Assembly: GCA_028289585.1 (NCBI GenBank)
Contig: JANQPI010000035.1
Coordinates: forward strand, 280,717 to 344,716
From: Candidatus Zixiibacteriota bacterium
GTDB taxonomy: Bacteria > Zixibacteria > MSB-5A5 > GN15 > FEB-12
Reading direction: 5' to 3'
DNA length: 64,000 nucleotides
Every line of letters begins with the position of its first letter. The first letter of the stretch is position 1. The notes under the pieces were generated by a model. That model was not told where the DNA came from. It ran no database searches and was given only the letters and a program-made list of their open reading frames with translations. The position numbers and the translations under genes are program-made. Of this stretch, positions 17,773-20,010 are shown one piece after another.

Positions 17773-18171
17773 ATGCAAGATCCAGACGAACTTAAACGCA
17801 AACTTGAGTCGATGGAGAAGAGTTCAGCAGAAGTATCTCATTCTCGGAGCGAACCCGTTGCAAGTACCAAGCTCGAACAATCGTCAACGAGTTCAGCAGA
17901 CAGGGGCGGCTCAAGAGTCTTAACCAATATTCTGCTTTCAGCAATTCTATTGACCCAAGGGCTGATCTTCTGGAAACTCTCGTTTCTCTTTCCTACGTAC
18001 GGAGATATTCGAGCGACGCGCGACATCGCTGATCACGACGTTCGAAGATCAGAGATTCTTGATCTAAGAGAGAGGTCTCTGCTAGTTTGGGTCGTCGATG
18101 GTAGTATTGACGTGGACAATGAAATCGACGCGAGAATCACCAATGAGCCTCTTGAGGTTGATGTTCAGTAA
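17773..18171 (+). CDS. Hypothetical single-pass membrane protein
   Basis: A 132-residue protein of unknown family. The first 45 residues are hydrophilic and Ser/Glu-rich. One membrane helix lies at about 50-70 (TNILLSAILLTQGLIFWKLS). The last 60 residues are charged, ending in LEVDVQ. GGGGAG precedes the ATG. The gene looks AT-richer than its neighbours and lies between yebC and the repeat cluster, so it may be a later arrival. No function can be assigned. Confidence 0.6.
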   Translation: MQDPDELKRKLESMEKSSAEVSHSRSEPVASTKLEQSSTSSADRGGSRVLTNILLSAILLTQGLIFWKLSFLFPTYGDIRATRDIADHDVRRSEILDLRERSLLVWVVDGSIDVDNEIDARITNEPLEVDVQ

Positions 18172-18211
18172 GCCTGATCAACACATCTTTTGGATTGTGT
18201 GCTTCGTGGGC

Positions 18212-18230
18212 GGCAGGCCCCCGGCCTGCC
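18212..18230. repeat. Perfect hairpin GGCAGGCC-CCC-GGCCTGCC
   Basis: An eight-base perfect stem with a three-base loop just after the orphan gene. No T-run follows. It sits at the left edge of the repeat cluster and is probably part of that composite element. Confidence 0.7.
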
Positions 18231-18246
18231 CCAAAGCCACAGGCAC

Positions 18247-18328
18247 CGTCATCCCGGCGAAAGCCGGGATCCAGTCTCTTGTCATATGAAGACACAAGAC
18301 CTGGATTCCGACTTTCGTCGGAATGACT
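18247..18328. repeat. REP-like composite repeat, copy 1
   Basis: Three hairpins in a row. The first is CGTC followed by ATCCCGGC-GAAA-GCCGGGAT and CCAGTCTC. The middle one pairs TCTTGT (18277-18282) with ACAAGA (18294-18299). The third is the inverse unit, ATTCCGAC-TTTC-GTCGGAAT then GAC. The core resembles the ATTCCC-N8-GGGAAT type of repeat (dRS3-like) seen in several bacteria. It ends 13 bases before the HAD gene start. Confidence 0.85.
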
Positions 18329-18341
18329 CGCTATCGTCGAG

Positions 18342-19163
18342 ATGACTCGTAGACGAGGGTCGGCGGCAGCCGAGGGCGACTGCCGCCCACGACTCCATGC
18401 CCTCCTCCTCGACCTCGACGGGACGCTCTATATTGGCAACTCGCTGATCCCCGGGGCGACTGACGCTATCGAGCAGCTGCGCAAGGCCAACATCCCGCTT
18501 CGCTTCACAACCAACACGACAACAAAGTCGAACGCGAGCCTGATCGCCAAACTACGAAACCTCGGCATCGACGCCGTTGACAGTGAACTCTTTGGCGCGG
18601 TGAGTGCGACAGTCGCGCACCTGCGATCACTCGATTCCCCGCCGGTGCGGTTGCTCCTTTCCGACGACCCCAAAGCTGACTTCACCGAATTCACGATTGA
18701 TGACAGTAACCCCGGTGCGATTGTCGTCGGTGACATGGCGAAAGCGTGGGACCAACCGCTCATGCAGAGCTGCTTCGAGCAGATGCAGAACGGTGCGCAC
18801 CTGATCGCGATGCACAAGGGTAAATACTGGCAGACCGAATCGGGATTGCGGGTTGATATTGGCGCATTCATCTCCGGACTTGAGTTCGTGACCGGGGTCG
18901 AGGCGACGGTGATCGGGAAACCCTCGAAGTCATTCTTCGACCTGGCGGTGGCGTCGCTTGGTATTCCATCAACGGAGGTCATGATGGTCGGCGACGACAT
19001 CGAATCTGACATCGGCGGTGCCCAACAAGCCGGGCTGACGGGTGTGCTGGTGCGGACCGGGAAGTACCGACCGGAGACCGAGCGCGACTCAGACGTCCTT
19101 CCTGACCACGTGATTGATTCGATTGCCGATCTGCCGAGTCTTTTCGAGCAGGGACTCGTGTAA
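18342..19163 (+). CDS. HAD-IIA family phosphatase (LHPP-like)
   Basis: A 273-residue haloacid-dehalogenase superfamily hydrolase of subfamily IIA. Motif I is LLLDLDGTLY with the nucleophilic aspartate. Motif II is RFTTNTTTKS, motif III is VIGKPSKSFF and motif IV is MVGDDIESDIGGAQ. It most resembles the NagD/LHPP group of small-molecule phosphatases; the substrate is unknown. Between ATG 18342 and motif I no other start exists, so about 16 N-terminal residues (TRRRGSAAAEGDCRPR) come from sequence next to the repeat. No ribosome-binding site is evident. It is bracketed by REP-like repeats on both sides. Confidence 0.88.
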   Translation: MTRRRGSAAAEGDCRPRLHALLLDLDGTLYIGNSLIPGATDAIEQLRKANIPLRFTTNTTTKSNASLIAKLRNLGIDAVDSELFGAVSATVAHLRSLDSPPVRLLLSDDPKADFTEFTIDDSNPGAIVVGDMAKAWDQPLMQSCFEQMQNGAHLIAMHKGKYWQTESGLRVDIGAFISGLEFVTGVEATVIGKPSKSFFDLAVASLGIPSTEVMMVGDDIESDIGGAQQAGLTGVLVRTGKYRPETERDSDVLPDHVIDSIADLPSLFEQGLV

Positions 19164-19208
19164 GCGCTCAACGGGCAGGTGAGGACACCTGCCGCGCACA
19201 AGGTACCT

Positions 19209-19280
19209 CGTCATCCCCGCGTCGGCGGGGATCCAGTCTCCCGTTCGAGGAACGGGATTCCGACTTTTGTCGAAATGACG
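19209..19280. repeat. REP-like composite repeat, copy 2
   Basis: Same architecture as copy 1: CGTC-ATCCCCGC-GTCG-GCGGGGAT-CCAGTCTC, a middle stem CCCGTTC/GAACGGG (19240-19246 with 19250-19256), and an inverse unit ATTCCGAC-TTTT-GTCGAAAT (one mismatch). The middle stem has a different sequence from copy 1 but remains paired. It follows the HAD gene by 45 bases. Confidence 0.85.
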
Positions 19281-19335
19281 TGCGTCCGAGTTGACTCGGC
19301 AGTCGAGGGCGACAGCAGGGCGCTGCGCAAAGTGG

Positions 19336-19355
19336 ATTCCCGCCTACGCGGGAAT
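19336..19355. repeat. REP-like single unit
   Basis: ATTCCCGC-CTAC-GCGGGAAT, a perfect eight-base stem, with TGG before and GACG after. It fits the ATTCCC-N8-GGGAAT pattern exactly and is in inverse orientation to the CGTCATCCC units. Confidence 0.85.
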
Positions 19356-19361
19356 GACGAG

Positions 19362-19397
19362 ATTGAGACTCGCTCTCACATTGAGACTCGCTCCCAC
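19362..19397. repeat. 18-bp tandem duplication
   Basis: ATTGAGACTCGCTCTCAC is followed immediately by ATTGAGACTCGCTCCCAC, two copies with one difference, within the repeat cluster upstream of ruvC. Confidence 0.8.
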
Positions 19398-19416
19398 CCC
19401 ACCCTAAAGGGTGGGG
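19397..19416. repeat. Hairpin CCCCACCC-TAAA-GGGTGGGG
   Basis: A perfect eight-base inverted repeat with a four-base loop, without a T-run. It lies between two REP-like units and belongs to the same cluster. Confidence 0.8.
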
Positions 19417-19430
19417 CACCCACGCGAGTC

Positions 19431-19462
19431 CGTCATCCCCGCGCAGGCGGGGATCCAGTCTC
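19431..19462. repeat. REP-like single unit, forward orientation
   Basis: Third direct copy of the CGTC-ATCCCCGC...GCGGGGAT-CCAGTCTC unit, with loop GCAG. It ends 59 bases before ruvC. The whole gap 19164-19521 holds only such repeats and no gene. Confidence 0.85.
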
Positions 19463-19521
19463 AAAATGCGTTGCGGCACCTTTCTAGTTGAGCCGCAACC
19501 TACCCGGGCCGATCTTCTGCC

Positions 19522-20010
19522 ATGCTTATCCTCGGACTTGACCCCGGACTCCAGTGCACCGGCTACGGGCTGATCGACGCTTCTGTCGAGCCAACTCGTA
19601 TCATCGAGGCGGGCGTTATCCGTTCCGATAGCAACGCCCCGATGGCGGCGCGTCTGTGTGAGCTGGCCGACGGACTCCGAGGTCTGCTGGCCCAGCACGA
19701 GGCTCAGGCTGTTGCTGTCGAGGAGCTCTACGCCCATTACGACCATCCGCGGACGGCGATCATTATGGGGCACGCCCGTGGGGTTTTATTGATGGCCGCC
19801 GGGAATGCAAAGGTGCCGGTGCATACCTATGCCGCAACACGGATCAAGAAGTCGCTGACCGGAAATGGTCGCGCGACCAAAGCGCAGATGCAACGCACCA
19901 TAGCTTCACGACTCGGCTTACCGACAGTACCGGAGCCGGCCGACGTCGCTGATGCACTCGCCATCGCGCTCTGTCACGCCGAAACAGCGGCACGGGGAGT
20001 CACCGTATGA
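19522..20010 (+). CDS. ruvC: Crossover junction endodeoxyribonuclease RuvC
   Basis: A 162-residue Holliday-junction resolvase. The acidic active site is visible as D7 in LGLDPGLQCTGYG, the glutamate in AVEELYAHYD, and the aspartates of ADVADALAIALCH near the C-terminus. It cuts four-way junctions together with RuvAB. Unusually for a first gene, its upstream region is the REP-like cluster. It overlaps ruvA by four bases (ATGA). Confidence 0.97.
   Translation: MLILGLDPGLQCTGYGLIDASVEPTRIIEAGVIRSDSNAPMAARLCELADGLRGLLAQHEAQAVAVEELYAHYDHPRTAIIMGHARGVLLMAAGNAKVPVHTYAATRIKKSLTGNGRATKAQMQRTIASRLGLPTVPEPADVADALAIALCHAETAARGVTV

Follow-up and report, generated by a model that had tools for sequence, protein, structure and literature searches.

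Head-to-head CGTC-1 REP dimers with covarying outer hairpins in a Candidatus Zixiibacteriota genome

Two elements, at 18247-18328 and 19209-19280 of a 64,000-nucleotide stretch of Candidatus Zixiibacteriota DNA (the window, at its full length), raise the question of which part of a folded repeat is kept when its letters change. The first-pass annotation described them as two copies of a three-hairpin element whose middle stems, TCTTGT/ACAAGA in one and CCCGTTC/GAACGGG in the other, differ in sequence and yet remain paired, and it proposed that selection acts on the folded form, as structured RNA or as a cruciform target. Both copies were confirmed at these positions, and both middle stems are present. 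The genome in question comprises 3,152,376 bases in 55 contigs and is 99.6% complete. The repeat-bearing region (18171-19520) is enclosed by plus-strand open reading frames (ORFs), one ending at 18171, one between the two elements (18342-19163, +; given for context only), which we take from its DLDGT motif to be a HAD-like phosphatase, and one beginning at 19522 (+), presumably ruvC. When named genomes were scanned with the ORF between the elements, six relatives at 41-54% identity came up, five of them Actinomycetota by name.

Each of the two elements turned out to be a single 25-nt unit present twice in inverted orientation, with the general form GTC-ATYCCNNC-loop of 4-GNNGGRAT-CC and an anatomy of tag, 8-bp stem, 4-nt loop, and CCA tail. 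In dimer 1 (copy 1, 18247-18328, +), a left REP at 18248-18272 (+; stem ATCCCGGC) and a right REP at 18303-18327 (-; stem ATTCCGAC, read on its own strand) stand head to head across a 30-nt spacer (18273-18302), which holds the stem TCTTGT/ACAAGA, absent from most other copies. In dimer 2 (copy 2, 19209-19280, +), the left REP at 19210-19234 (+; stem ATCCCCGC) and the right REP at 19255-19279 (-; one mismatch to the search pattern) are separated by 20 nt. Two single CGTC REP units nearby, at 19334-19358 (-) and 19432-19456 (+), had been overlooked in the first reading. The CCA tail follows nearly all the units listed, the exception being the second unit of dimer 2; the 4-nt loop length was set by the search pattern and is backed by the covariation measured against slid partners (see below).

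We then determined how far the unit is spread. Within the window, a search allowing up to 3 mismatches gave 18 matches against 8.2 in shuffles, and all five exact ones fell in the region 18171-19520. In the whole genome, the pattern GTCATYCCN10GGRATCC was matched 51 times with at most one mismatch, on both strands, including 38 exact matches and six in the window, while a reversed control pattern gave none; a few of the one-mismatch matches look spurious and were retained in the counts. The units are dispersed and also occur in clusters and as inverted pairs. Among 31 genomes (the present one, 18 from the same family, and 12 others from the same order), 24 contained exact units, namely, this genome and 23 of the 30 relatives. 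Of 80 genomes of the order, 7 contain head-to-head dimers in which both units are exact and the spacer keeps within the limits set by the pattern.

In each window element, two CGTC-1 REPs, which form a known family, stand head to head. In the sections of Di Nocera, De Gregorio and Rocco (2013; PMC3733652) used here, CGTC-1 REPs have a CGTC or TGTC tag, an 8-bp stem starting with AT, a 4-nt loop, and a CCA tail, and occur mostly as head-to-head dimers; the tag, often TGTC or CCTC, lies unpaired ahead of the stem, the family is equated with Neisseria dRS3 and Rickettsia conorii RPE-6, and no transposase was found for it. The units described here agree in tag, AT-start stem, loop, tail, dispersed head-to-head dimers, and the absence of an adjacent transposase, as tested for RAYTs. 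Among the seven dimers of this genome, the left tags are CGTC (four) and TGTC (three), and the right tags are CGTC (four), TGTC (one), AGTC (one, in copy 1), and GGTC (one, at locus L017, minus strand). The first two stem pairs are A-U (columns 4-23) and U-A (columns 5-22), each in 80 of 82 units, in columns that are mostly fixed by the pattern.

Two features set the present units apart from the CGTC-1 set as portrayed in those sections (PMC3733652). The 22 pairs of neighboring units within 160 nt of each other in this genome comprise 7 head-to-head, 8 tail-to-tail, and 7 same-direction pairs, the last two kinds being common here and rare and negligible there. All 18 dimers found here (7 at the loci retrieved from this genome and 11 in six other genomes of the order) are heterodimers, whereas homodimers predominate there; the present data add a lineage in which every CGTC-1 dimer found so far has unlike arms. 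The stems of the two arms differ in 18 of 18 dimers, with 14 to 22 of the 25 letters alike between arms. Two units drawn at random from this genome have the same stem with a probability of 0.25, so that the 7 of 7 unlike dimers in this genome are not significant (P of 0.13), and the 18 of 18 reach about 0.005 only on the assumption that 0.25 applies to the other genomes as well. In this genome, every head-to-head pair (7) and every tail-to-tail pair (8) joins a unit starting with GTCATC or GTCACC to one starting with GTCATT, while all 7 same-direction pairs, three of which make up one tandem array, are of one type. For the 15 unlike neighbors, random pairing gives a P of about 6e-6, which is overstated, as clusters arise by local copying. 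The rule of unlike types is not a general one, as 3 of 11 dimers elsewhere consist of two T-type units, their stems still being unlike. The simplest reason for the unlike arms would be avoidance of a long perfect palindrome, as suggested for heterodimers in the cited sections (PMC3733652).

We asked next whether the pairing of the outer hairpins is kept when their sequence changes. The set analyzed comprised 82 distinct units, 31 from this genome and 51 from the relatives listed, collected with a pattern that specified the class of the bases in the outer stem and left three inner pairs free. The 8-bp stem was paired in 96.2% of cells compared with 84.6% after shuffling, changes on both sides were seen in 78 cells compared with 19.7, and the covariation score was 0.343 compared with 0.122; none of 500 shuffles was as high on any of the three measures. 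The relatedness of units within one genome inflates such shuffle tests. Sliding the partner by 1 to 3 columns lowered the pairing to 16 to 54%. Two further measures, the number of stem pairs with any both-side change (4) and the number of further pair types (13), did not rise above the shuffles, 150 of 500 being as high in either case. Full Watson-Crick pairing over 8 bp was found in 56 of the 82 units, which represent 12 stem types, and the three inner pairs left free by the pattern were paired in 38, 38, and 37 of the 38 exact genome matches. Selection on the outer hairpins is accordingly well supported, bearing in mind that the units of any one genome are related to each other.

The middle stem behaved differently. 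The longest stem within the spacer exceeded chance (P < 0.05, shuffles of each spacer) in 3 of the 18 head-to-head dimers and the spacer energy in 2, neither figure being corrected for the 18 tests. Two of these three dimers are the window copies, and it was therefore exceptions that the first-pass annotation had seen. In an alignment of the seven dimers of this genome, whose spacers align weakly and give seven rows, the central helix of copy 1 was paired in 59.3% of cells, while the outer helices were paired in 100% and 96.4%. The nearest relative of copy 1 (C23:423829, 84% identical) has no predicted spacer structure and a longest spacer stem of 3 pairs. The spacers at loci L016 and L017 can be aligned with each other, and complementary ends are present in that of L016 and absent from that of L017. 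Covariation of the central stem as a general feature was consequently rejected on two counts, the spacer stems of 15 of 18 dimers that do not exceed chance, so that other copies for the most part lack a paired center, and the low pairing in the alignment. What stands of the earlier description is that the repeat looks selected for a folded form, in its outer parts, which are 8-bp hairpins with 4-nt loops and covary; a selected middle stem does not stand. In the fuller set of copies, the covariation signal moves from the center to the outer hairpins, which corrects an attractive but selective reading. An occasional central stem was already known, since spacers with complementary ends or small stem-loops are reported for several families in the sections cited above (PMC3733652).

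Taking the outer and central parts together, we consider it probable that the elements are CGTC-1 REP dimers with selected outer hairpins and a spacer stem that is not conserved, existing as non-autonomous inverted pairs of hairpins. The functional form would be a small hairpin of a single strand that becomes exposed when the DNA is unpaired, for instance as it replicates; the tag and hairpin would most likely be recognized by an HUH-type (Y1) enzyme, as for RAYT REPs, and the spreading unit would consist of two such hairpins in opposite orientation. With unlike arms, the pair would not amount to a long perfect palindrome, which the cell would delete. Mobility is here something we infer, because no same-genus genome that might reveal an empty site is among the relatives searched (31 searched; 80 of the order). 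The enzyme step is put forward by analogy, because none of the RAYTs examined has a CGTC REP close by (see below). The long form of a dimer may also matter, because a single long hairpin is the best fold of copy 1 under both RNA parameters (-48.4 kcal/mol, compared with -30.6 for three hairpins) and DNA parameters, the latter placing a 6-bp central stem at its top. For copy 2, unlike copy 1, three hairpins are the best RNA fold.

The alternative that fares best, though we regard it as unlikely, is that the dimers work at the RNA level, as transcribed hairpins at the ends of genes (mRNA stabilizers, attenuators, or weak terminators), which would be why their stems covary. Both dimers lie between ORFs of the same direction and fold strongly on the plus strand (z-scores of -7.6 and -3.3), and RNA roles have been proposed for many REPs in the sections consulted of PMC3733652. 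On the other hand, no site resembling an intrinsic terminator was found at the dimers; two such sites were detected (1.7 expected), both inside the ORF 18342-19163. No Rfam family reached its gathering score in this stretch; a search by sub-threshold E-value gave six matches, all far below their gathering scores, the best being to a microRNA family (E of 0.0016; 30.7 bits compared with a gathering score of 150). The occurrence of units on both strands argues against this alternative as well, and the scarcity of G-U pairs (13 of 656 stem cells in the 82 units) leans slightly to DNA without being decisive.

A RAYT-type transposase, which the first-pass annotation had suggested looking for, was sought, and three were found in the genome: A (C23:422582), B (C16:218529), and C (C16:447324), all exceeding the cut-off of NF047646, the profile of REP-associated tyrosine transposases. 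RAYTs A and B each lie between inverted hairpins, while RAYT C has one hairpin copy immediately downstream of its 3' end and a second within the reading frame itself. Hairpin families B and C, which belong to two of the three genes, each combine a GTGG tag with a stem of 8 bp (one pair being G-T in C) and a loop of 4 nt. In six genomes, an inverted repeat of at least 15 nt spanned the gene in 17 of 22 RAYTs, compared with 2 of 300 shuffled flank pairs. REPINs, described by Bertels and Rainey in 2011, reportedly accompany a RAYT with matching REPs beside it. The CGTC dimers are like them in being an inverted pair of short hairpins that would spread as a unit, in a genome that has RAYT genes, and unlike them in that the CGTC units flank no RAYT of their own, those of this genome carrying families A, B, and C. 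We likewise rejected CGTC REPs as RAYT-flanking REPs within 500 bp, as 0 of the 63 RAYTs examined (out of 124 matches, picked mainly by assembly quality) had a CGTC REP within that distance, in agreement with section 16 of PMC3733652, where CGTC REPs are without an adjacent transposase. The GT[AG]G-tagged REPs of TnpAREP REPtrons, as they appear in the parts of PMC6006769 and PMC8266576 drawn on here, resemble the GTGG-tagged families B and C found near the dimers; in tag and stem they differ from the CGTC units, which form a separate family in the same intergenic mosaics.

At larger distances from the RAYTs, 10 CGTC matches were counted in 177 kb at 0.5 to 2 kb and 8 in 638 kb at 2 to 8 kb. 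Merged to loci, these are 6 and 6, about 3.6 times denser in the nearer interval (P of 0.03; 0.07 without the weakest locus, which has 2 mismatches, and 0.08 over 0 to 2 kb), an interval picked after the table had been seen, so that no excess is claimed. Among the six nearer loci is a dimer of the present genome, situated 1 kb from its RAYT A.

The hairpins of the resident RAYTs are interleaved with the CGTC REPs in the window. A GTGG-tagged hairpin resembling families B and C (18206-18230, +) precedes dimer 1, and a family C REP (18365-18390, -), identical over its 26 letters to the copy beside RAYT C16:447324, lies 37 bp past its second unit. A family B REP (19174-19199, -), which differs by one mismatch from that beside RAYT C16:218529, precedes the first unit of dimer 2 by 10 bp; a degenerate family C REP (19298-19323, -; 6 mismatches) follows this dimer, and a family A REP like that beside RAYT C23:422582 is located at 19399-19420 (-). 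Genome-wide, families B and C gave 28 matches at up to 3 mismatches and family A gave 6 at up to 2 (one of them doubtful), the controls giving 0 in both cases. After removal of the 6 at RAYT genes, 22 dispersed B and C REPs were left, of which 18 (10 of 12 merged loci) lie within 400 bp of a CGTC match, stretches that amount to 0.7% of the genome. Of the 21 CGTC clusters, in turn, 10 are accompanied by a B or C copy at 400 bp or less, and 11 are not. The order of a CGTC unit followed after 16 to 23 nt by an inverted B unit recurs at L008, L014, and L016; a single fixed CGTC-plus-B composite was rejected, as spacers and orientations differ.

Outside this genome the association was less marked. 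Four other relatives showed no clear excess (4 of 40 CGTC loci, covering 43.5 kb, compared with 9 sites in 176 kb of background; P of 0.25), and in another genus RAYT-cognate REPs were present in 3 of 6 dimer loci compared with 3 of 29 background stretches (Fisher P of 0.049), which is suggestive. The other five dimer loci from outside this genome yielded a weak match at L079 and none at the remaining four. No report of CGTC REPs interleaved with RAYT REPs was found in the portions covered of the non-Neisseria literature on REPs and RAYTs; in section 7 of PMC3733652, Neisseria CGTC-1 clusters are interleaved with other repeat families.

Since the joints are of several kinds, we take them to reflect insertions that recurred at the same tolerant sites, with the intergenic regions as mosaics, and keep co-mobility as a minority reading. 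That the CGTC REPs travel with the resident RAYTs or are moved in trans by them, through joint mosaics with GTGG-tagged RAYT REPs, strikes us as quite unlikely. The proximity of the dispersed B and C REPs, the recurring order at three loci, the other genus, and the post hoc distance interval would all fit it, whereas the empty 500-bp flanks of the 63 RAYTs, the lack of one fixed unit, and the four relatives speak against it, and these observations are also explained if both kinds of repeat prefer the same tolerant intergenic sites. A version in which RAYTs move the CGTC REPs in trans within shared mosaics, the RAYT REP serving as a handle and the CGTC dimer as a passenger or second substrate, is a shade more doubtful. 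The interleaving makes the question of what moves the CGTC REPs testable with three defined enzymes and their substrates.

Several further arrangements were observed in these mosaics. At L016 (2703-3023; C21:475402-475722), a 98- to 99-bp unit consisting of a CGTC REP and a family B REP is tandemly repeated, giving four CGTC and three B copies. L008 contains two blocks, 259-426 and 1353-1520 (C21:110458-111719), 1,094 bp apart and with the same order of elements, namely, a family A-like REP, partial CGTC repeats, a CGTC REP, and a family B REP; directly next to the first block, 20 residues remain of a gene start like that of RAYT A (80% identical). At about 2772-2823 of L018 (C23), a family B-like REP carries a loop insert of the form CCTGTCCTGAGCCTGTCGAAGGG, and the B-plus-insert starts again at about 2963.

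Around the RAYT genes, the internal REP copy of RAYT C lies at L020 3559-3586 (C16:447559), at the residues around ARQSPPAAGW, and the other copy is located just past the stop codon. A second RAYT B-like gene start (L019 2403-2530; C16:217402), 21 residues long and 71% identical, sits beside a degenerate family B REP and is a RAYT relic about 1 kb from the intact RAYT B gene. An inverted pair of family C REPs 605 bp apart (C16:512637 and C16:513242), has no CGTC match within 29 kb and no Y1_Tnp match at its position, and may mark a RAYT locus that has since been lost.

Returning to the preferred reading of selected outer hairpins, it could be objected that their covariation reflects the copying and conversion of a few ready-made stem types rather than selection on each hairpin. 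The units of a genome do fall into few types (5 fully paired ones here), and related sequences inflate shuffle tests; however, the 12 fully paired stem types come from 15 listed genomes, each of another genus, and all four bases, with their partners, occur at the sixth stem position (column 9), so that the types must have arisen by paired change somewhere, and we judge this objection improbable. Least of all do we credit selection on all three hairpins as one element, be it a structured RNA or a cruciform target, with its center kept by compensatory change, a very improbable reading to which the unlike central stems of 6 to 7 pairs in both window copies, the complementary spacer ends at L016, and the central stem retained in the DNA fold of copy 1 lend color, and against which stand the 3 of 18 spacer stems, the partly paired copy-1 helix, the 3-pair stem of its 84% identical relative, the discordant L016 and L017 spacers, and the differing best RNA folds of the two copies.

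Two minor features of the window concern the repeats near dimer 2. A 102-codon ORF at 19179-19487 (+) consists mostly of translated repeats (HPRVGGDPV, DSRLRGNDE) and is a probable source of spurious gene calls. Between the two single CGTC REPs, at 19362-19397, an 18-nt repeat (ATTGAGACTCGCTCYCAC) is present in two head-to-tail copies.
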